This document shows positions 27,362-39,640 of a stretch of 40,001 bases of DNA, piece after piece (within the stretch, counting starts at the first letter, position 1; each line of letters opens with the position of its first letter). Source of the stretch: Clostridiales bacterium. GTDB lineage: Bacteria > Bacillota > Clostridia > Christensenellales > Aristaeellaceae. A program made the position numbers and the translations under genes. The stretch lies in assembly GCA_012520375.1 (NCBI GenBank), contig JAAYOH010000102.1:1-40001 (forward strand). Reading direction: 5' to 3'. The notes under the pieces are model-generated. The model saw only the letters and a list, made by a program, of their open reading frames with translations. It searched no databases and had not been told where the DNA came from.

Positions 27362-29830
27362 TCAAACGCCCTTGCGCTCGTTGATCAGCTTCTGGTTCAG
27401 GGTCTGGTTGGTGACGCGCACGTGGCCGGGCAGGGGCAGGATCTTGGCGTCGATGGCGTCCAGGATCCAGGCGGGCTGCGGGAAGAAGGCGTCCTCCAGC
27501 TCGTGGGCGGGCGTGATCCAGTTCTTGCTGGCCACCACCACGGGGGGAGCATCCAGCTCGTCGAAGGCCATCTCGGTGACCTGGCGGGCCACTTCGCTGG
27601 CGAAGGAACCGCGCTCGCAGGCGTCGGTGACGATGACCAGGCGGCCGGTCTTCTTCACGGATTCCAGCACGGTGTCATAGTCGAAGGGCACCAGGGAACG
27701 GGCATCGATGATCTCGGCTTCCAGGCCGTACTTTTCTTTCAACGTGTCGGCGGCCTCGATGGCGCGGTACAGCACGGCGCCGAAGGTGAGGATGGTGATA
27801 TCCTTGCCGGGGCGCTTGACGTCCGCCTTGCCGAAGGGGATCTCGTAGTATTCCGCCGGTACGCCGCCCTCGTGGAACAGTTCGCCCACGTCATAGATGC
27901 GCTGGCTCTCGAAGAAGACCACGGGGTCGGTACCAACCAAAGCGGTGGCCATCATGCCCTTGGCGTCGTAGGGGGAAGCGGGGAAAACCACCTTCAGGCC
28001 CGGGATGTGGGCGGTGAGGGCCGTCCAGTCCTGGGAATGCTGGGCGCCGTACTTGCTGCCCACGCTGACCCGCAGGGTGACGGGCAGCTTGATGACGTTG
28101 GCGGACATGGCCTGCCACTTGGCCATCTGGTTGAACACCTCGTCTCCGGCGCAGCCCAGGAAGTCGCAGTACATGAGTTCCACCAGGGCGCGGCCGCCGG
28201 CCATGGCATAGCCCACGGCGCTGCCTACGATGGCGCTCTCGCTGATGGGGGAGTTGAACAGGCGATGGTAGGGCAGGGCCTCGGTGAGTCCGCGGTACAC
28301 GGCAAACGCGCCGCCCCAGTCCCGCACGTCCTCGCCGTAGCTGACCAGGGAGGGATCCTTGTAGAAGCGGTCGATGATGGCCTCGAACAGGCCGTCGCGC
28401 AGCTGGTACACCCTGTTTTTGGGCACGAGCTTGCCGTTGGCGTCCATGCCGAAGCGCTCCTTGCGGGCGATGGCCTTGACCCGGGGATTCTCCTCCAGGG
28501 GCATATTCACGTCGCTCTCGCCCTCGCCGAAGGACTCCACGCGGCCGTTGGTGAACATCATGTCGGCGACCTCGTCGGGGTTGGCCTTCAGGTCCATATG
28601 GGGAGACAGGTTGTCGTCGATGGACAGCTTGAAGTTGCGCAGATTGGTGGCCTTGACGGTGGCGACCACCTGATCCAGCTCGGCCTCGGTGGCCACGCCG
28701 GCCTCGATGAGCTGGCTCCGGAACTCGACGAGGGGATCCTGGGCTTCCCAGGCGGCGATCTCTTCCTCGGTGCGGTAGCTGGAGGAGTCGGAGGGGCTGT
28801 GCCCGGCGAAGCGGTAGGTCATCACGTCCAGCAGCACGGGGCCCTCGCCCTTCAGCAGGATCTCCTTCTTGCGGCTGTAGGCTTCGATGACCGCCAGGGG
28901 ATTGAAGCCGTCCACCCGCTCTGCGTGCATCTGGTTGGGGTTGAAGCCCGCGCCCATGCGGGCCAGGATGTCGAAGGCCATGGTCTCGCCGCTGGTCTGG
29001 CCGCCCATGCCGTAGTGGTTGTTGAAGATGTTGAACAGTACCGGCAGGCCGCCCCGCATGTCCTCGCGCCACAGGTGGGTCAGCTGGCCCATGCCCGCCA
29101 TGTTCAGGGCTTCCAGCACGGGGCCGCGGCCCAGGGAGCCGTCGCCGATGTTGGCCACCACGATGCCGGGCTTGCGGTTCACCCGCTTGTACAGCGCCGC
29201 GCCCATGGAAATGGTGCCGCTTCCGCCCACGATGGCGTTGTTGGGGTAGATGCCGAAGGGGGTAAAGAAGGTGTGCATGGAGCCGCCCAGGCCGCGGTTG
29301 AAGCCGGTTTCCCGGGCAAAGATCTCGCTCATGGCGCCGTACAGCAGGAAATCCATCGCCAGGTCCTTGACGCTGTCGTGGGGATGCTTCTCCACCACCG
29401 CAAGGGCACTGCCTCCCAGGAAGTTCTCCATGATGTCCAGGAGCTCTTCGTCGGACAGCTTTGCGATGGCGGACAATCCCTTGGCCAGGATGTCGGAGTG
29501 GGCGCGGTGGGAGCCGAAGATGAAGTCGTTGGTGTCCAGGTGGAAGGCCTCACCCACGGCGGCGGCTTCCTGGCCCATGGACAGGTGGGCGGGGCCGGGA
29601 TGGTTGTAGGCAATGCCTTCATACTCGCCGGTCTTCTTGATCAGGTTGATCATGGTCTCGAATTCCCGCAGGATGAGCATGTCCCGATAGATGTTGATGA
29701 ATTGCTCCTTTGTGAAATTGCCCAGCTCATCCTTGACCTTCTTTTGGTACTGGTTCACCGGGATATCCTGAAAACGGACATAACCCGGCTTTCTCAGTTC
29801 ATTGGGATCCACGAAAAGCTGCTTACTCAT
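27362..29830 (-). CDS. 2-oxoacid dehydrogenase E1 component, alpha and beta subunits fused
   Basis: 822 residues. Residues 1 to about 440 are an E1-alpha domain with the TPP motif beginning GDG at 229-231 and ending IFNNHYG, plus the loop YRFAGHSPSDSSSY. From about 462 an E1-beta domain begins (YQLRDGLFEAIID, YGEDVRDWGGAF, FNSPISESAIVG). The enzyme decarboxylates a 2-oxoacid with thiamine diphosphate and passes the acyl group to lipoyl-E2. Pyruvate, acetoin or branched-chain oxoacids are all possible; the sequence does not decide. In most organisms the two parts are separate genes, so the fusion fixes 1:1 stoichiometry. It is the last gene of an E2-E3-E1 operon, 25 bases after E3. AGGAG lies upstream of the ATG. 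Confidence 0.92.
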   Translation of the reverse strand: MSKQLFVDPNELRKPGYVRFQDIPVNQYQKKVKDELGNFTKEQFINIYRDMLILREFETMINLIKKTGEYEGIAYNHPGPAHLSMGQEAAAVGEAFHLDTNDFIFGSHRAHSDILAKGLSAIAKLSDEELLDIMENFLGGSALAVVEKHPHDSVKDLAMDFLLYGAMSEIFARETGFNRGLGGSMHTFFTPFGIYPNNAIVGGSGTISMGAALYKRVNRKPGIVVANIGDGSLGRGPVLEALNMAGMGQLTHLWREDMRGGLPVLFNIFNNHYGMGGQTSGETMAFDILARMGAGFNPNQMHAERVDGFNPLAVIEAYSRKKEILLKGEGPVLLDVMTYRFAGHSPSDSSSYRTEEEIAAWEAQDPLVEFRSQLIEAGVATEAELDQVVATVKATNLRNFKLSIDDNLSPHMDLKANPDEVADMMFTNGRVESFGEGESDVNMPLEENPRVKAIARKERFGMDANGKLVPKNRVYQLRDGLFEAIIDRFYKDPSLVSYGEDVRDWGGAFAVYRGLTEALPYHRLFNSPISESAIVGSAVGYAMAGGRALVELMYCDFLGCAGDEVFNQMAKWQAMSANVIKLPVTLRVSVGSKYGAQHSQDWTALTAHIPGLKVVFPASPYDAKGMMATALVGTDPVVFFESQRIYDVGELFHEGGVPAEYYEIPFGKADVKRPGKDITILTFGAVLYRAIEAADTLKEKYGLEAEIIDARSLVPFDYDTVLESVKKTGRLVIVTDACERGSFASEVARQVTEMAFDELDAPPVVVASKNWITPAHELEDAFFPQPAWILDAIDAKILPLPGHVRVTNQTLNQKLINERKGV

Positions 29831-29855
29831 GGGGTGTCACTCCTTTATTCCACTC

Positions 29856-31229
29856 TTATTGGTCCTTAAACTCCCAGATGACTTCGCGTATGATCTCGCT
29901 GACGGTAGGATGGGGGAAGATGAGCTCTTTCGCATCCTGCACCCGCAGCTCGCTCTCGATCATGGCCGCGGCGCCCCAGATGATCTCGGAGGCGTAGCTT
30001 CCGATCATGTGTACACCGATGACGTTCCGGTGTTTCTTGTTCACCAGCACCTTGCACAGGCCGTCGCCGCCCTCGTTCTCCGCCACAAAGCGGCCCGCAT
30101 AGCGCATGGACAGCTTTTTGACCTCGTACTCGATGCCCGCCTCTTGGGCCCCCTCCTCGGTATAGCCGACGCCTGCCACTTCGGGCGTGGTATAGATGAC
30201 GGACGGGTTGGCCTGGTAGCGCATGACGTCCTTTTTGCCCAACATGGTGTTGATGGCCACTTCGCTCTCCCGGTAGGCGGTATGGGCCAGCATGTGGCGG
30301 CCGTTCACATCCCCGGCAGCGTATACATTTTCCACATTGGTTCGGCCCTTGTCGTCGGTGACGATGCCCGCCCGGTTGATCTCTACCCCAATGGTCTCCA
30401 GACCCAGATCCTGGAAACTGGCCCGGCGGCCGATGGAGCACAGCGCCTTGTCGGCGGCCACTTCCACCTGCCTGCCCTGGGCGTCTTCGCACAGCACCTT
30501 GCCCTCGGCCACCCCGGTGACTTTGTGGCTCAAAAGGAACTTGATGCCCTTCTTTTCGTACTCGGCCCGCAGCAGTTCCCGGATCTCTCCGTCCGTGGGG
30601 CCGGCGATGTGATCCAGCATCTCAATCACGGTGACGCGGCTGCCGGCGGTATTGTAGTAGGCCCCCATTTCCAGGCCGATGATGCCGCCGCCGATGACGA
30701 TAAGCTCTTTCGGCACTTCGGGCAGCTGCAGTATCTCTTTGTTGGTGAGCACAAACCCTGCGGCATACTGCTCCCGCAGGCCCGGGATGGGGGGCATGAC
30801 GGGCACGGAGCCCGCTGCGATGAGCAGGCGCTTTGCGGTCTGCTCGCCGCCGGCGCTGGCGACTTTAAAGCCGCCCTCCACGCGCCCGGCGATGGTTGCC
30901 TTTTCCTTGATGACGGTGACGCCGGCGCCCCGCATCTTGGCGCCCACGCCGCTGACCAGGGTCTTGACCACCTTGCCCCGGCGGGCCACCACTGCGGCAT
31001 GGTCCAGGCTGGCGCCCTCCACCTTGACGCCGTAAGCGGCGCTGTGGGTGGCGTACTCGTACAGTTTGGCGGAATGCAGCAGGGCCTTGGAGGGGATACA
31101 GCCCTCGTTCAGGCACACGCCGCCCAGGGAATCCATCTCGTACAGGCAAGTTTTCAGCCCGGCATGGCCCGCCCGCTCTGCCGCCAGGTACCCGGCGGGA
31201 CCGCCGCCGATCACGATCAGATCAAACAT
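29856..31229 (-). CDS. lpdA: Dihydrolipoyl dehydrogenase (E3)
   Basis: 457 residues with the class I disulfide oxidoreductase layout: FAD motif GGGPAG near residue 9, redox pair C39/C44 in GGVCLNEGCIPSK, NAD motif IGGGIIGLEMG, a second FAD block VENVYAAGDV, and the C-terminal dimer segment HMIGSYASE then FPHPTVSE. The catalytic histidine is in HPTVSE. It reoxidises the dihydrolipoyl arm of E2 and makes NADH. No N-terminal lipoyl domain is attached. It lies 16 bases after E2 and before the fused E1 gene. Confidence 0.95.
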   Translation of the reverse strand: MFDLIVIGGGPAGYLAAERAGHAGLKTCLYEMDSLGGVCLNEGCIPSKALLHSAKLYEYATHSAAYGVKVEGASLDHAAVVARRGKVVKTLVSGVGAKMRGAGVTVIKEKATIAGRVEGGFKVASAGGEQTAKRLLIAAGSVPVMPPIPGLREQYAAGFVLTNKEILQLPEVPKELIVIGGGIIGLEMGAYYNTAGSRVTVIEMLDHIAGPTDGEIRELLRAEYEKKGIKFLLSHKVTGVAEGKVLCEDAQGRQVEVAADKALCSIGRRASFQDLGLETIGVEINRAGIVTDDKGRTNVENVYAAGDVNGRHMLAHTAYRESEVAINTMLGKKDVMRYQANPSVIYTTPEVAGVGYTEEGAQEAGIEYEVKKLSMRYAGRFVAENEGGDGLCKVLVNKKHRNVIGVHMIGSYASEIIWGAAAMIESELRVQDAKELIFPHPTVSEIIREVIWEFKDQ

Positions 31230-31245
31230 GCTTCCCTACACCTCC

Positions 31246-32586
31246 TCAGCCCTTTGCCAGAAGCAGGGTAAAGTTCTCCAGGTTGGTCTTCAACGTCTTC
31301 AGGAACTTGCTGGCGGGAGCGCCGTCCAGCGCCTGGTGATCGTAGGTCAGGCACAGGCCCATGGCGGGATAAGGCACCGCCTGGCCGTTTACGTCCTTGA
31401 CTCGGGTTACGATGGAACACACGCCCAGGATGCCGGTCTGGGGCGGGTTGATGACAGGGGTGAAACTCTCGACACCCAGGGTGCCCAGATTGCTCACGGT
31501 GAAAGAGCCGCCGGTAAGCAGGTCGGGGTTGATGGAGCCGCCCTGGCAGGCCGTGGCCAGTTCCTTGGCCTTTTCGGACAGATCCTTCAGGCTCAGGGTA
31601 TCGGCGTGCATGATGGTGGGCACCATGAGGCCCCGTTCGGTATCCACGGCCATCCCCAGGTTCACATGGTGAAAGTACTTCATGGTTTTGCCGTCGTCGA
31701 TGAGGTTGGCGTTCAGCGCCCGGAACTCGGGGATTGCCAGGGTGCGGGCCACGGCAAACATGATGATGTCGTTCAACGTGATGCGATTCATGCCCATGGC
31801 CTCGCCCTGCTCCTTGAAGAGCCGACGCATCTTCTGGATCTCGGTAGCGTCGAAGGTGAGGCTGTGGGTGAGCTGGGCCATGGAACGCAGGGAGTTCGTC
31901 ATGGAACGGGCGATCACCTTGCGGATGTTGCTCATGGGCTCTGTGTAGAATTCGGGCTCCGCGGCGGCGGCGGGAGCGGCCTCCGCCGGGGCCGACAAAG
32001 GTTTTTCCAGGTCGCTCAGGGACACCCGGCCGCCCAGACCTGTGCCTTCCAGGCCGCCCTGGTAGGCTGCCCGGGCTGCGGGCGACACCACGAGGCCTTC
32101 ATCGATCAGTTTCTGCACGTCCCGGGCAATCACGCGTCCCTCGGGACCGGTAGCGGATACCTTGCTCAGGTCTGCGCCGCGCCTCTCCGCCAGGGCCCTG
32201 GCCCGGGGAGAGATTTTCATGTTCAGGCTGTCCACCGCCACGGCGGCGATCACCTGCTCGGGTGCTGCGGCTTTGGGCTCCGCCTGCTCCGCTTCCTGGG
32301 CTGCAGGGGGCGCCATGCCCTCCGGGGCGAAGGCGCTCACATCGTCACCGGGCTTGCCGATGACGCAAACGTTGGTCAGGCAGGGAACGTCGTCCCCCTC
32401 CTGAAAAAAGACCGCCAGCAGCGTACCTTCTGCCTGAGCCTTTTCTTCGAAGGCAGCCTTGTCGGTCTCAAAGGAAAACAGTTTGTCCCCCAGGGCGACG
32501 GGATCACCTGGCTTTTTGAACCATTCGGTTACGATACAGCTTTCTACTGTGTTGCCCTGTCTGGGCATAATTACAGGAACGGCCAT
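31246..32586 (-). CDS. 2-oxoacid dehydrogenase E2 (dihydrolipoamide acyltransferase)
   Basis: 446 residues. A single N-terminal lipoyl domain carries the lipoyl lysine K43 in the motif FETDKA. An Ala/Pro/Glu-rich linker follows, then a peripheral subunit-binding domain (about 130-165: ISPRARALAERRGADLS and GPEGRVIARDV), a second Ala-rich linker and the catalytic domain with H417 and D421 in YDHQALDG. The enzyme forms the core of the complex and transfers the acyl group to CoA. ATG 32586 has AGGAGG six bases upstream. It is the first gene of the operon. Confidence 0.93.
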   Translation of the reverse strand: MAVPVIMPRQGNTVESCIVTEWFKKPGDPVALGDKLFSFETDKAAFEEKAQAEGTLLAVFFQEGDDVPCLTNVCVIGKPGDDVSAFAPEGMAPPAAQEAEQAEPKAAAPEQVIAAVAVDSLNMKISPRARALAERRGADLSKVSATGPEGRVIARDVQKLIDEGLVVSPAARAAYQGGLEGTGLGGRVSLSDLEKPLSAPAEAAPAAAAEPEFYTEPMSNIRKVIARSMTNSLRSMAQLTHSLTFDATEIQKMRRLFKEQGEAMGMNRITLNDIIMFAVARTLAIPEFRALNANLIDDGKTMKYFHHVNLGMAVDTERGLMVPTIMHADTLSLKDLSEKAKELATACQGGSINPDLLTGGSFTVSNLGTLGVESFTPVINPPQTGILGVCSIVTRVKDVNGQAVPYPAMGLCLTYDHQALDGAPASKFLKTLKTNLENFTLLLAKG

Positions 32587-32636
32587 AAGCATCCTCCTAT
32601 CCTCGTATGTGCAGCGCACAACTACTCACAATACCT

Positions 32637-32710: not shown

Positions 32711-33151
32711 TCAAGGGTCTTCCGGCCGCAGTTTTTCCAGCAATTCTGTGCAGCCCGCAGAAATATCCCTCCAAGCCTTTTCGAAATCTCCGCTATACCA
32801 GGGATCGGCTACGGATCCACCTTCTTTCATCATGCGGTATTTGTCGCTGGGCCCGAACATGCGCTTCAGGTCCCGGAGGTTATCTTTGTCCATCACCACG
32901 ATGTGGTCGTAGTAGCCCAGATCCCTGCGGGTCATCTGCCGGGCCCGTTTGCCCTTGCAGGAGATCCCGTGGGCCGTCAGAATGTTGCGGGTACCCGGGT
33001 GTACCGGGCACCCCAGTTCCTCGTCACTGGTGGCAGCGGATGCCACCTCGAAACAGTCCAGCCCCGCCCGCCGCGCCATATCCCGGAACAGGTACTCCGC
33101 TATGGGGCTGCGGCAAATGTTGCCATGGCATACAAATAAAATCTTGACCAC
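32711..33151 (-). CDS. Low-molecular-weight protein-tyrosine phosphatase
   Basis: 146 residues from GTG 33151, chosen because AAGGGG precedes it and the family begins just before the P-loop. The P-loop is C8-H-G-N-I-C-R14 followed by S15, and the general acid is D116 in ADPWYSGDF. The family dephosphorylates tyrosine-phosphorylated proteins, often controlling polysaccharide synthesis; arginine phosphatases share the fold. No tyrosine kinase or capsule genes are nearby. The gene stands between the dehydrogenase operon and the terminator of the pseudo-caspase gene. Length is normal for the family. Confidence 0.92.
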   Translation of the reverse strand: MVKILFVCHGNICRSPIAEYLFRDMARRAGLDCFEVASAATSDEELGCPVHPGTRNILTAHGISCKGKRARQMTRRDLGYYDHIVVMDKDNLRDLKRMFGPSDKYRMMKEGGSVADPWYSGDFEKAWRDISAGCTELLEKLRPEDP

Positions 33152-33177
33152 AATCGCACCCCTTACGCATGTCATGG

Positions 33178-33217
33178 AAAAAGGGCCGCCTTCCGGCATC
33201 CACCGGGAAAACGGCCC
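33178..33217 (-). terminator. Terminator of the pseudo-caspase gene
   Basis: On the minus strand GGGCCG pairs with CGGCCC, with further pairing inside (TTCC/GGAA), followed by five T residues. It lies 32 bases after the stop codon of the gene at 33249. Confidence 0.75.
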
Positions 33218-33248
33218 CAAGAAGCCCGTTGAAAACGCATTCGGTCCT

Positions 33249-36092
33249 TTAGTCTTCTACCTTCCAGCCGCTGGGGTCCGGAGCATCCCAGTCCATATCG
33301 TCTTCCCCGGTATCTTCCTCTTCTATTTCAAAAGTCTCTTGCGTTTCGGGGGCGGGACCCGCGTTCAGCTCCGCATCCGGGGGCAAAATCTCTGCAGAGG
33401 CGCCCCTCAGGTCCAGGCCGTACAATTCGTCCCCTTCGGCGACGGTGACGGCGTAGTTCAGGGTGCCGGTCTTGCCGGGCTTCAGCTTGTTCGTGCCTGC
33501 CGGGATCTCCTTGACCAACAACTGCCGCCCGTCCGCCAGGGTGAGCACCAACTTGCCTTCCTCGGGTACGGTAACGCCGGCATCGGTCCCGTTGGCGAAA
33601 TACATCTCAAAGAGCAGCTGGTCTTTGGCGTACTGGATTCGTCTGGCGCTGGTGTAAACCTTTTTCTCCTCCCCCACGATGGGCTTGGGGTTGCGCACCG
33701 CATTGGCCTCCACCGTCACGTTGCATTGGGCGCTGATGGATCTCCCCCCGTTGCGGCCGACCGCTTTGATGACTGCTTTGCCCGCCCTCCTCGCTACGAC
33801 TTCGCCGGTGCTGCTGACGGTGGCCACCTTGGGATTGGAACTTCTCCACTTCACGCTGCCGTTCCCCGCCCCCTCGGGCTGGGTCTGGGCGGTGAGCGTG
33901 AATCTGCCCGCCTCCGCGGAACCCGCCAGCAGTTCGATATCGCTCTGGTCCAGGGAGAGGGCGGTGATGGATACCGGTTCCACCTCCAACCGGCAGATCG
34001 CCTTGACCCCGCCGGGGGCGCTGAGTTGGATGACCGCCTTGCCCGTGGCGACGGCGTTCACATGGCCCTCCGCATCCACGACCGCGATGTCTTCCTGGCT
34101 GCTGCTCCACTGCAGCCCGGTGGTGCTGGCATTCTTGGGAGCCAGCTGGAAGCTCAGATCCGTTGTGGCGCCCACTTCCAGGCTCAACTTCTCCGGTTTG
34201 ATGCTGATCTTCTTCACCGGTACGCCCCCCACCACCACCTGGCACTGGGCCGTGGTGCTGTCGCCGAGGCTGGCGGTGATGACGGTCTCGCCCTCGGCCA
34301 TCGCGGTGATCTTGCCCTTTTCCACCGAGGCGATGGTGGGATCCTCACTGGTCCAGATGATTTCCCCCTCCGCCGAGGTGGGCTTAACGCGGGTCTTCAG
34401 GGTGGTGGACGCGCCGATCTTCATGTTCAGGCTGTCCTTGTTCAGCAGCAATTCGGGCCCCTTGACGGTGACCGCGATGGGGGCGTATATCCCGCTGGAG
34501 GCGGTGGCGTACACCGTACAGGTTCCGGGGGCTACGCCGGTGATGATGCTGTCGCCGCTGATGGAGGCAACGGCGGGATCGCTGCTGGTGAACGTCACTT
34601 CGCTGTGCAGCGCCTCGGCCGGCTTGATCCTGGTCTTGGCGACGAAGGTGCCGCCCACATACAGTTCCAATTCGGACTTGTTGACTTTGATGCCGGTGAC
34701 CGCATCCTTGGGATCCACTACGCTGATGGCGCAGCTGGCCTCTACGCCGCTCTCGCTGGCGATGGTCACCTGGGTGTCCCCGATGGCCCGGCAGGTGACA
34801 AGGCCGTTCTGATCCACGGTGGCGATGGCCGAATTGTCGGTGGACCAGCTATAGTTCTCGCTGGCGTCCTCGGGCTCGATCCGCACGTTCATCTGTACGG
34901 TGTTGCCGCTGCCGACGGTGAGGGCGCTGGTGCTCAGGGTAAAGCTTTCCACCATGGTCACATCCCGCACGGTAACGTCGGCGAACACGGTGAGGCCATT
35001 GGCGGTGGTGGCGGCGATACGGGCGAGGCCCGGCTTCACGCCGGTAACCACGCCGTCGTCGTCCACTGTGGCGATGGAAAGGTCTGCGCTGGACCAGGCG
35101 ATGGTGCGCTTGGATGCGTTGGGGGGCTGGGTCTCCGCCTCCAACTGGCGGGTCCTGCCCATGGGCACCTCGATGCTGTCCTGAATCAGGGTGACCTCCA
35201 GCACCTCGCTGGTGGCCCGGCGAGCCATCAGGGGGTAGGTGGAGCCTTCGGGGGAGATGGCCACGTCCGCCACCGGGTCTTTGCTTCCTTCCAGTTCCGC
35301 CATGCCCTCCGTGATGTAATCTCGGATCTCCGTGAGGGAAACGGCTCCGTTTCCGTTGGTGTCGGCGGGCATTTGATCCACCGGGCGCTGCTCTCTGTAG
35401 TCGTATCCGCAGCCTTGGGTGAGCAGGTAGGTGACCAGGCCCCGGGGCTCGTCGCAGGCGGGCAGCACGTCCGTCTCGCTGGAGGTCAGGGTACTGCCGG
35501 CCAGCACATAGTAACGGCCTGCATTGGGAGACTCCCGGAACACCCCCAGCACTTCCTGGTTGAAGCGGGCCACTTCCACCTGGGCTTTCAGGGGATCCAC
35601 CTGGGTCTCCCCCTTCTCCAGCAACTCCTCGTCCGCCAGGCGCATGTCCAGCGCCACCATCTTGGTGCCTTTGAGGCCGTCCAGCAGCTGGATGAGGTCG
35701 GCAATGGAGAACATCTTGTTGTCCTTGCCCACAATGGCGGGGGTCCCCTTGTCGCTCAAATACCCGCGCCCCGCAAAGAAGAAGAAGGTAACGTCGTCCT
35801 CATCCACGTTCCAGGTGGCCATGTCGGTGGCCAGTTCCCCGATCTCCTGGCTTGTCAGGTTGGAACGGAGCACGGGGGCCTGGTAAAAAGCCCCCGCCTC
35901 ATTGGCGGTCTGAAGGGTCTGGGCCATGCGGTTGATGTCGTTCACGCAGCCCTCCAACGCCCCGGCCTGGTAGGCGTCCACGCCGATCAGCAACGCGCGG
36001 TAGATCGTCTCACCGTTTCCGGCGGCAGAGGCTACCGTGCAGGTCTGCACAAACAACAAAGCCAGCAACAGGATCGCAAATATGCGCTTCAT
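33249..36092 (-). CDS. Secreted caspase-fold protein without catalytic residues, with six BIG2 Ig-like domains
   Basis: 947 residues. A signal peptide (1-23) leads into a peptidase C14 (caspase/metacaspase) fold: RALLIGVDAY (32-41), a C-V-N-D helix, the strand VTFFFFAGRGY and the strand MVALDMRLAD. Active enzymes have S-G-H-G and D-x-C-x-S-G at the latter two sites; here the residues are R109 and R151, so the dyad is absent. An EF-hand-like loop follows (D244-T-N-G-N-G to E255), as in bacterial relatives. Six BIG2-type repeats occupy about 285-780, then a beta domain and an acidic tail. ATG 36092 has GGAGG ten bases upstream. It is probably exported and acts as a binding or scaffold protein. 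Promoter is divergent from glyS. Confidence 0.85.
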   Translation of the reverse strand: MKRIFAILLLALLFVQTCTVASAAGNGETIYRALLIGVDAYQAGALEGCVNDINRMAQTLQTANEAGAFYQAPVLRSNLTSQEIGELATDMATWNVDEDDVTFFFFAGRGYLSDKGTPAIVGKDNKMFSIADLIQLLDGLKGTKMVALDMRLADEELLEKGETQVDPLKAQVEVARFNQEVLGVFRESPNAGRYYVLAGSTLTSSETDVLPACDEPRGLVTYLLTQGCGYDYREQRPVDQMPADTNGNGAVSLTEIRDYITEGMAELEGSKDPVADVAISPEGSTYPLMARRATSEVLEVTLIQDSIEVPMGRTRQLEAETQPPNASKRTIAWSSADLSIATVDDDGVVTGVKPGLARIAATTANGLTVFADVTVRDVTMVESFTLSTSALTVGSGNTVQMNVRIEPEDASENYSWSTDNSAIATVDQNGLVTCRAIGDTQVTIASESGVEASCAISVVDPKDAVTGIKVNKSELELYVGGTFVAKTRIKPAEALHSEVTFTSSDPAVASISGDSIITGVAPGTCTVYATASSGIYAPIAVTVKGPELLLNKDSLNMKIGASTTLKTRVKPTSAEGEIIWTSEDPTIASVEKGKITAMAEGETVITASLGDSTTAQCQVVVGGVPVKKISIKPEKLSLEVGATTDLSFQLAPKNASTTGLQWSSSQEDIAVVDAEGHVNAVATGKAVIQLSAPGGVKAICRLEVEPVSITALSLDQSDIELLAGSAEAGRFTLTAQTQPEGAGNGSVKWRSSNPKVATVSSTGEVVARRAGKAVIKAVGRNGGRSISAQCNVTVEANAVRNPKPIVGEEKKVYTSARRIQYAKDQLLFEMYFANGTDAGVTVPEEGKLVLTLADGRQLLVKEIPAGTNKLKPGKTGTLNYAVTVAEGDELYGLDLRGASAEILPPDAELNAGPAPETQETFEIEEEDTGEDDMDWDAPDPSGWKVED

Positions 36093-37777: not shown

Positions 37778-38218
37778 TTACCCGATCTCGACCTTCCGGG
37801 CGCCCTTCTCCCCGGAAGATTTGGGTAGCGTCAGGGTCAGCACCCCGTCCACGTAGTCGGCCCGGATCCCATCCTCCTGGATGCCCTTCAGGGCGAAGCA
37901 GCGGTGGATACTTTGCCGGCGCCGTTCGCTGTACAGGTAGTTGTCCTCCTTGGTTTCCTTTTCATCCTGGCTGTCCACCCGGATGCTGAGGACCCCGTCC
38001 CGGATCTGGATATCCATGTCTTCCTTTTTGACCCCGGGCAGGTCGGCTTCCAACAGGTAGTGGTCGCCGGCATCCTGCACATCCACAAGCATGGAGCTGG
38101 CGGGTGTGTTGAAATCGAAGTCAAAGTCGAAGAAGGGCCGGAACAGTTCATCAAAAGGGTTTCCGGTGCGGCGGCCCACCATGGGACGATTGGAACGATA
38201 AGGCATCATAGCTTTCAT
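37778..38218 (-). CDS. Small heat-shock protein, Hsp20/alpha-crystallin family
   Basis: 146 residues: a short basic N-terminus with NPFDELFRPFFDF, the alpha-crystallin domain (about 42-135: YLLEADLPGVKKEDMDIQI and FALKGIQEDGIRADYVDGVLTLTLPK), and a short tail. It holds unfolded proteins in a refoldable state during stress, in oligomers, without ATP. AGGAGG lies eight bases before the ATG. Its promoter contains a CtsR-type operator (separate entry), giving heat control. No CIRCE element was seen. Confidence 0.95.
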   Translation of the reverse strand: MKAMMPYRSNRPMVGRRTGNPFDELFRPFFDFDFDFNTPASSMLVDVQDAGDHYLLEADLPGVKKEDMDIQIRDGVLSIRVDSQDEKETKEDNYLYSERRRQSIHRCFALKGIQEDGIRADYVDGVLTLTLPKSSGEKGARKVEIG

Positions 38219-38311
38219 TTACATTTCCTCCTTTTTTTATGGCTTTGCGCATGGCGTGTCGTTATTGTCGCTGTGCAACTGTCGTCGGGTTCTCTTCCCT
38301 TCGACATTTAT

Positions 38312-38340
38312 AGTATAACATATAGGTCAAAGAAAGTCAA
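38312..38340 (-). promoter_or_regulatory. Promoter of the small heat-shock gene
   Basis: Minus strand: -35 TTGACT (38340-38335), 17-base spacer, -10 TATACT (38317-38312). Confidence 0.75.
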
Positions 38341-38341
38341 G
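38325..38341 (+). promoter_or_regulatory. CtsR-type heat-shock operator
   Basis: GGTCAAA-GAA-AGTCAAG matches the CtsR consensus RGTCAAA-NAN-RGTCAAA at all but the last base. It covers the -35 and spacer of the hsp20 promoter. A looser copy with the same 7-3-7 spacing (GGTAAGT-ATA-GGTAAAT) directly follows at 38341-38357. Confidence 0.65.
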
Positions 38342-38443
38342 GTAAGTATAGGTAAATATTTTGTTGCCCGCTCTTTACCTTCCGGGGCTTGCGCCGGGCC
38401 CTTTCCCGGGTATATGATGAGTGCATATAAGGGAGGACTGATC

Positions 38444-39640
38444 ATGACCGAGCGGCTGTATTACGCTGATCCGTATCTGACCCACTTTTCCGCCACCGTG
38501 CTGGCGTGCCGTCCCGAAAGGAACGGCTACCACGTCCTGCTGGACCGCTCCGCCTTCTACCCCACCTCGGGAGGCCAGCCCTATGACACCGGCACCCTGG
38601 GCGGACGGCAGGTCCTGGACGTTTCCGTAGACAAGGGGGGAAAGATTTGGCACCTGGTGGACGGCCCCCTGGAGCCCGATTCTCCGGTGGAAGGACACGT
38701 CGACTGGCCCCGGCGATTCGACCACATGCAGCAGCACGCGGGCGAACACATGCTGGCGGGGGTCATCTGGCACATGCTCCGGGGCCATACCATCGGGCTG
38801 CACCTGGGCGCCGAGGATTCCACCATCGACGTAGAACTGCCCGACGGCAGCATGCGGGTGGAAGAGGACGTCCTCCTGGAGATCGAGGAACGGGTAAACC
38901 GGCAAATCCAGCAGGACCTTCCCATCCGCTGCTGGTTCCCCACCCCGGAAGAATTGGAAGCCGCGCCCCTGCGCAAGCGCCCCGCGGTGTCGGACCATAT
39001 CCGGCTGATACAGGTGGGAGATGTGGAATGCGTAGCCTGCGGCGGTACCCATCCCTCCTCCAGCGGCCAGATCGGCCTGCTGAAGATCCTGGATGCCCGG
39101 CCCAGCCGGGGCAAGATGCGGGTCCGTTTTGTGTGCGGCATGCGGGCCTTCAGGCAGTTCCAAAAGAGCCATGCTCTTCTCGATCAGGCAGCCCGGGTAT
39201 TGTCCACGGCCATGGAAAACCTGCCCGGGGCGGTGAAAGCCCTGAACGACCGCCTGCACGAGGCGGAGCGGGCCCTCAGGGCCCAGCGCTTGTCCCTGGC
39301 CCTGCAGGATGCCCCCGCCCTGATGGAAAACGCCCTGACCCTGGCCGCGGGGAGCCGCCTCATCGCCCATGTGGCGGAGGGGCTGGACCGGGACGGGCTG
39401 GTAGAGCTGGCCCGTTACCTCACCGGACAGGGGTTCATCACCCTCCTGGCCAACGCAAAGGAAGAGGGAGCCGCCTTGCTCTTCTCCGCCCCTGAGGGAA
39501 CGCCGGCGGACATGGGCAGGCTGCTGTCAGCCTGCGTAAAGCCCCTGGGGGGCAAAGGGGGCGGCAAGCCCGACTTCGCCCAAGGCGCGGGGCCTGGGGA
39601 GCAGGTGCTCAAGGCCGCCATGGCCCATCTGACGGCCTGA
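38444..39640 (+). CDS. Alanyl-tRNA editing protein, AlaX-L type with DHHA1 domain
   Basis: 398 residues, similar to the editing half of alanyl-tRNA synthetase. An N-terminal beta-barrel (RSAFYPTSGGQPYD) is followed by zinc-site residues H98 and H102 in QQHAGEHML and C199/H203 in CGGTHPSSSGQ, then a helical linker (about 250-300) and a DHHA1-like domain ending in GGGKPDFAQGAG. It hydrolyses Ser- or Gly-tRNA(Ala) in trans. ATG 38444 has GGAGG seven bases upstream; the frame stays open far upstream but without family similarity. The HAD hydrolase follows after 24 bases. Confidence 0.92.
   Translation: MTERLYYADPYLTHFSATVLACRPERNGYHVLLDRSAFYPTSGGQPYDTGTLGGRQVLDVSVDKGGKIWHLVDGPLEPDSPVEGHVDWPRRFDHMQQHAGEHMLAGVIWHMLRGHTIGLHLGAEDSTIDVELPDGSMRVEEDVLLEIEERVNRQIQQDLPIRCWFPTPEELEAAPLRKRPAVSDHIRLIQVGDVECVACGGTHPSSSGQIGLLKILDARPSRGKMRVRFVCGMRAFRQFQKSHALLDQAARVLSTAMENLPGAVKALNDRLHEAERALRAQRLSLALQDAPALMENALTLAAGSRLIAHVAEGLDRDGLVELARYLTGQGFITLLANAKEEGAALLFSAPEGTPADMGRLLSACVKPLGGKGGGKPDFAQGAGPGEQVLKAAMAHLTA

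Follow-up and report, generated by a model that had tools for sequence, protein, structure and literature searches.

The question raised by this locus is what an exported protein can be for when its caspase domain has arginine at both positions where a caspase would carry its catalytic residues. The gene lies in a window of 40,001 nucleotides (contig JAAYOH010000102.1 of assembly GCA_012520375.1, from a Clostridiales bacterium of the family Aristaeellaceae); the host genome assembly comprises 2.29 Mb in 106 contigs.

Layout of the gene and its product

The gene occupies 33249..36092 of the minus strand, from an ATG at 36092 to a stop at 33249, and encodes a 947-aa secreted pseudo-orthocaspase with six Big_2 repeats, as judged from the open reading frame and Pfam. 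By eye, residues 1-23 (36024..36092) form a signal peptide that ends in ASA before A24; an earlier note on this DNA, made from the letters alone, had likewise proposed export. The caspase (C14) fold domain follows at residues 28-298 (35199..36011). Behind it stand the Big_2 bacterial Ig-like repeats, residues 299-795 (33708..35198), a C-terminal beta domain, residues 798-905 (33378..33701), and an acidic tail, residues 906-947 (33252..33377), which is probably disordered (pLDDT mostly under 50); all are on the minus strand. Pfam finds Big_2 in six stretches (E 1.6e-73), the number that had been counted by inspection: a tandem array on what the signal peptide marks as an exported protein. No anchor motif for cell-surface attachment was recognised by eye in the 947 residues; the protein may therefore be released rather than surface bound.

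The fold of the head is that of a caspase. Pfam places Peptidase_C14 at residues 32-139 (E 2.9e-10; PF00656, 40.6 bits against a cut-off of 21.4). The AlphaFold2 model of residues 24-379 has a pLDDT of 86.6, and its superposition on PDB chains with VIA-align 2 gives metacaspase-4 (Z 20.1, 212 residues, 2.7 A), procaspase-7 (Z 18.9) and MALT1 (Z 18.7); the model and the Z of 20.1 put the domain within the caspase-hemoglobinase fold. Pfam, model and superposition thus agree with the earlier claim of a well-preserved fold, and the segments RALLIGVDAY and GRYYVLAGS on which it leaned are present in the translation.

Loss of the catalytic dyad

In the profile alignment, R109 (AGRGY, codon CGC, 35766..35768, minus strand) stands at the catalytic His position and R151 (LDMRLAD, codon CGC, 35640..35642, minus strand) at the catalytic Cys position, as first read. 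Of 60 non-redundant C14 domains, drawn from part of the places matched in the protein and profile searches, 56 have His and Cys in these two columns; the remaining four, without an intact dyad, are the window protein and its three orthologues. The identity of the nucleophile column was checked by profile alignment to Arabidopsis metacaspase-4 and -9 sequences: the mutants C139A, C147A and C147G show their mutated letter in the column of R151. Further downstream in the domain, the profile stretch 164-194 aligns weakly with metacaspase-9.

Nor can another pair stand in for the missing one. The caspase domain of the window protein has three cysteines (49, 213 and 228) and no histidine at all, against one to seven histidines in each of 40 other aligned C14 domains; an alternative His/Cys dyad, which the earlier note had named as the observation that would overturn its reading, was looked for in this domain and is thereby ruled out. 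With R109 and R151 the protein lacks the His-Cys dyad of an active orthocaspase or metacaspase, and in having a p20 domain with a substituted dyad it fits the description of a pseudo-orthocaspase (PMC6426788), a class that its authors also characterise by the absence of a separate p10 domain under their HMM.

Orthologues, locus and descent

A protein search of 200 family genomes and a profile search of 308 yield four orthologues in total, the window protein included, spread over three genera within a single bacterial family. Along its first 300 residues the window protein is 66% identical to that of a congener (G001), 51% to that of G011 and 43% to that of G024. A second contig search has the same three relatives among the matches listed. 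The next-best match in the profile search of 308 genomes, at E 1.1e-42, is a protein of G024 with an intact dyad. No further orthologue appeared with the profile over the 308 family genomes (E 1e-25), in a sample of 396 genomes of the order, family included (E 1e-20), in a sample of 291 genomes of the class (E 1e-15), or in a scan of viral contigs. G041 is likely to hold a fifth member, judging from a C-terminal domain and Big_2 in an open frame cut off at the edge of the locus; a caspase head was looked for there and not found.

Written as His position/Cys position, the four orthologues read R/R (window), H/R, C/R and Q/R, and none of their reading frames is interrupted. The double arginine described at the outset is therefore real in the window protein, while the idea of a conserved arginine pair is rejected: it recurs in none of the three further orthologues, all of which have Arg at the Cys position. 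The same comparison disposes of one part of the suspicion that relatives might expose the arginines as isolated sequencing changes. As R151 is common to all four proteins, such a change is rejected there, and the window protein is a real pseudo-caspase, not a sequencing slip; R109 is known from one assembly. In the congener (L038, 7674-10469, plus strand) H109 is kept and C150 directly precedes R151 (DCR); in the G011 orthologue too the residue ahead of the Arg is Cys, numbered C151 in that protein, but its domain is without His. The congener is thus the only orthologue that might conceivably retain some activity.

A tree of 44 C14 domains (the four orthologues plus 40 of the 56 intact domains; a quick method, with both dyad columns included) gathers the orthologues into one clade with an SH-aLRT of 99, on a stem of 1.38 changes per column. 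Most simply, the Cys-to-Arg change would have been one event in the common ancestor of the four species; the His position, with a different residue in each of the four, implies at least three later changes. The natural series H/R, C/R, Q/R, R/R suggests a protease in which loss of the nucleophile came before loss of the base.

The position of the gene has been kept as well, on one side. It is paired divergently with glyS in all four genomes. On the side opposite glyS the window (phosphatase) and G001 carry different genes, while G011 and G024 have in common a pseudouridine-synthase-like gene (by eye); two other genes of the window have homologues in G024 at a distance of some kilobases. An active homologue at the glyS locus of other genera, which would show the ancestral state, was sought at the 30 best glyS loci, from which an upstream stretch was taken for 25 (no more than 276 and 686 bases in two cases); the G024 locus (outside the best 30) and three minus-strand loci lie outside this sample. 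Three of the 25 stretches are those of orthologues. None of the other 22 has a C14 match, and the two Big_2-range matches among them are weak (E 0.12 and 0.62); two further plus-strand glyS loci are likewise without a C14 match. In G073 (first 1500 bases of L105) an open frame of 499 aa, situated 3' of glyS, matches the window protein in the Big_2 range (27% identity, E 1e-16).

Around the gene in the window, a low-molecular-weight phosphatase gene (32711-33220) lies just downstream, followed on the minus strand by a 2-oxoacid dehydrogenase cluster (27362-32619; E1, E3, E2 by Pfam) whose E1 has both halves in one 822-aa chain. Beside glyS, at 37778-39640, are what we take to be an Hsp20-like gene (minus strand) and an alanyl-tRNA-editing-like gene (plus strand).

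What the head has changed and what it has kept

Position 151, Arg in the four orthologues, is Cys in all 40 other aligned domains; the preceding catalytic column is His in 40/40 intact domains and has lost it in the clade except in one orthologue. Position 153 reads A/A/T/P against Ser in 39 of the 40, and D154 (35631..35633, minus strand) is an acid in all four (D/D/D/E) against Gly in 40/40. Six residues do not vary among the 44 C14 domains: D52, D100, G108, D149, D244 and E255. D52 (35937..35939, minus strand) is an S1-pocket aspartate, aligned with Asp95 of TbMC2 (T. brucei MCA2), one of the pair of pocket aspartates treated by Klemencic et al.; the number 95 assumes a tag offset of 20. 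D149 (35646..35648, minus strand), two residues before the nucleophile position, is the second; we equate it with TbMC2 Asp211, which presumably lies two before Cys213. Both members of the acidic specificity pocket (TbMC2 Asp95 and Asp211) are thus present as D52 and D149. The cutting machinery has been taken apart, with the acidic pocket left in place.

The EF-hand-like loop DTNGNGAVSLTE (residues 244-255, 35328..35363, minus strand), singled out in the earlier note, is where it was said to be; as a distinguishing feature it has to be dropped, since every one of the 44 domains, 40 of them with an intact dyad, has D244 and E255, and the loop is general to the aligned C14 domains.

Identity to the window protein in the caspase domain, stalk and C-terminal domain is 66/59/59% for the closest orthologue, 51/45/44% for the second and 44/39/35% for the third; the caspase domain has the highest value each time. 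Between window and congener the head has dN 0.293, dS 0.71 and dN/dS of about 0.41 (own Nei-Gojobori script; the dS is rough at such distance and base composition). A ratio of this size, together with the highest identity, indicates that the head is constrained despite the lost dyad. The window lineage has departed further than its congener, with 30 unique changes in the head against 13 (p 0.014), and deviates at nine caspase-domain positions where the other three orthologues agree; a Tyr that these three have at position 152, adjoining R151, is Leu in the window protein. As glyS shows a similar excess (25 against 13), a faster rate in the lineage looks likely, not decay of the head, and head-specific relaxed selection in the window lineage is not seen.

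The C-terminal domain and related architectures

No Pfam or NCBIfam model matches the C-terminal domain over its cut-off. Fold searches with the C-terminal part are dominated by the Big_2 portion; 7quz (Big_2-CBM56) spans Big_2 and the C-terminal domain, though at an rmsd of 5.7 A over 151 residues. A profile of the domain matches in 9 of 308 family genomes, the four orthologues included. In the others it is found on Big_2 proteins with a metallo-beta-lactamase-like head (G100 and G046; by eye, without Pfam support), on a Big_2 protein with an LRR head (G040; Pfam, under cut-off), or as fragments (G004 and G041). This suggests that proteins joining Big_2 to this domain are a family with exchangeable heads. 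Two plus-strand frames, L121 (1-1797) and L123 (1-1791), have Big_2, the C-terminal domain and a head that by eye is of metallo-beta-lactamase/ComEC type; Pfam gives no match for either head.

Genes with a C14 domain are frequent in the same family. A match to the window head occurs in 78 of 200 family genomes, and each of the four orthologue genomes contains one or more other C14 genes that keep His and Cys; Big_2 accompanies them by Pfam in G024 (L042) and by eye in those inspected in the other three. By Pfam, L042 and L013 have an N-terminal C14 head with intact dyad and a Big_2 stalk. The end of L013 resembles the C-terminal domain by eye; the profile of that domain did not report it.

Possible roles of the head

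One way to account for these observations, and the one that we hold to be probable, is that a dead orthocaspase has been kept as a secreted, putative non-cutting binding head. In outline, the nucleophile Cys would have become Arg and proteolysis would have been lost, most simply once, in the common ancestor; the protein would be exported, with the head borne on a stalk of six Big_2 domains whose far end carries the C-terminal domain and the acidic tail; and the head would recognise a partner without cleaving it, in the simplest case a peptide whose basic residue enters the acidic pocket. Within the same binding-head account, R151 might instead pair with D149, D52 or D154 and plug the pocket, in which case another face would bind; a plugged pocket and a basic-peptide pocket are equally possible. 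The retained acidic pocket lends the basic-peptide version weak support, and D52 and D149 might have been kept for structure, which would count against a binding pocket. The surface binding or scaffold role of the earlier note is a plausible, if putative, one; nothing found speaks for the glycan recognition that it also mentioned. Two further points weigh against a binding head: carriers of the pseudo-caspase are four species only, and the window lineage has made the departures described above, at nine positions and by 30 changes against 13.

A second perspective would leave the head without a role, a passive relic carried along by selection on the Big_2 stalk and C-terminal domain. The drift at the His position, the restriction to four species and the occurrence of the C-terminal domain with other heads (metallo-beta-lactamase-like by eye; LRR under the Pfam cut-off) are what this predicts. 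It is nevertheless unlikely: the head is the part most conserved in every comparison, D52, D149, R151 and an acid at 154 have been kept, and glyS of the window lineage has changed about as fast, with no relaxation specific to the head. A somewhat better case, though still a doubtful one, can be made from the motif itself, D-x-C-x-S-G having become D-x-R-x-x-[D/E] beside an intact S1 pair; this might mark a self-held arginine or a new charged site, in a secreted decoy or FLIP-like regulator of active Big_2 caspases. In its explicit form, by analogy with FLIP(L), the head would pair with an active C14-Big_2 protein in its own cell, compete with it or be cleaved by it, a proposal marginally less likely than the relic. 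FLIP(L), with Arg and Tyr for His and Cys, heterodimerises with caspase-8, as stated in the part of PMC7586951 used here, and all four genomes do have a further C14 gene with His and Cys. Such co-occurrence is a weak argument, however, as C14 genes are common in the family (78/200 genomes); no candidate partner gene adjoins the pseudo-caspase gene, and the partner candidates vary in domain order and number.

Two explanations would deny that the enzyme is dead or that the arginines exist. Residual or displaced activity, through the Cys one position earlier (DCR, in two orthologues) or through non-Cys chemistry, would suit the congener, with H109 and C150 beside R151, and perhaps the G011 orthologue, though the domain there has no His. 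It is very improbable for the window protein, where the position is Met and the domain is devoid of His; the Ser and Gly that would follow the nucleophile have gone as well. Least credible of all is that a sequencing or assembly error made the arginines. R109 does come from a single assembly, and CGC is one transition from a His codon; R151, however, is found in four separate genomes with the frame open in each, and a mistake confined to R109 would not give the protein back its nucleophile.

With this clade, the function of bacterial pseudo-caspases becomes open to experiment on small soluble proteins, and C14 paralogues with an intact dyad occur in the same genomes.

Comparison with known systems

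Bacterial pseudo-orthocaspases have so far been discussed mainly in Cyanobacteria and Alphaproteobacteria; here they are met, with signal peptides, in gut Clostridia. In the part of their survey drawn on here, Klemencic et al. (2019, PMC6426788) count 858 among 9,994 bacterial orthocaspases, 90% of the pseudo-variants being alphaproteobacterial or cyanobacterial. They give YS, YA, FS, QC and YN as the common pseudo-dyads, and state for the cyanobacterial variants that the Asp pair of the acidic specificity pocket is kept; the main text, in the portion covered, mentions neither Firmicutes nor any word in Clostridi-. In the covered portion of a second paper (PMC3501461), caspase homologues are few in Firmicutes, 0.03 per 1000 proteins, and neither Big nor immunoglobulin is mentioned. 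No paper on clostridial or Big_2-linked pseudo-caspases was among the literature matches listed, a collection in which subscription journals are thinly covered; as far as these searches show, neither a pseudo-caspase of gut Clostridia nor one joined to a Big_2 stalk has been described before.

With the pseudo-orthocaspases of PMC6426788, so far as that text was covered, the window protein shares the p20 caspase fold, the replaced dyad and the acidic Asp pair; it differs from that set in its clostridial gut lineage, in Arg at the Cys position in 4/4 orthologues, in its signal peptide and in its six Big_2 domains. Arginine substitution as such is not new, as YR and RG are among the minor cyanobacterial pseudo-variants in the covered part of PMC8283722, where Arg likewise replaces either catalytic residue. 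Most cyanobacterial pseudo-variants are described there as having no other domains; unlike the YR and RG variants, those described here make up one clade of orthologues, and each member found carries Arg in place of the nucleophile. Within the family, L042 and L013 share the N-terminal C14 head, the Big_2 stalk and, by eye, a signal-like start, but have GHG and DACHSG intact and three Big_2 matches against six. Human FLIP(L), on the part of PMC7586951 covered, shares the caspase fold, the replacement of His by Arg and the loss of Cys; it differs in being intracellular, in its death-effector domains, in having Tyr at the Cys position and in having a known heterodimer partner.
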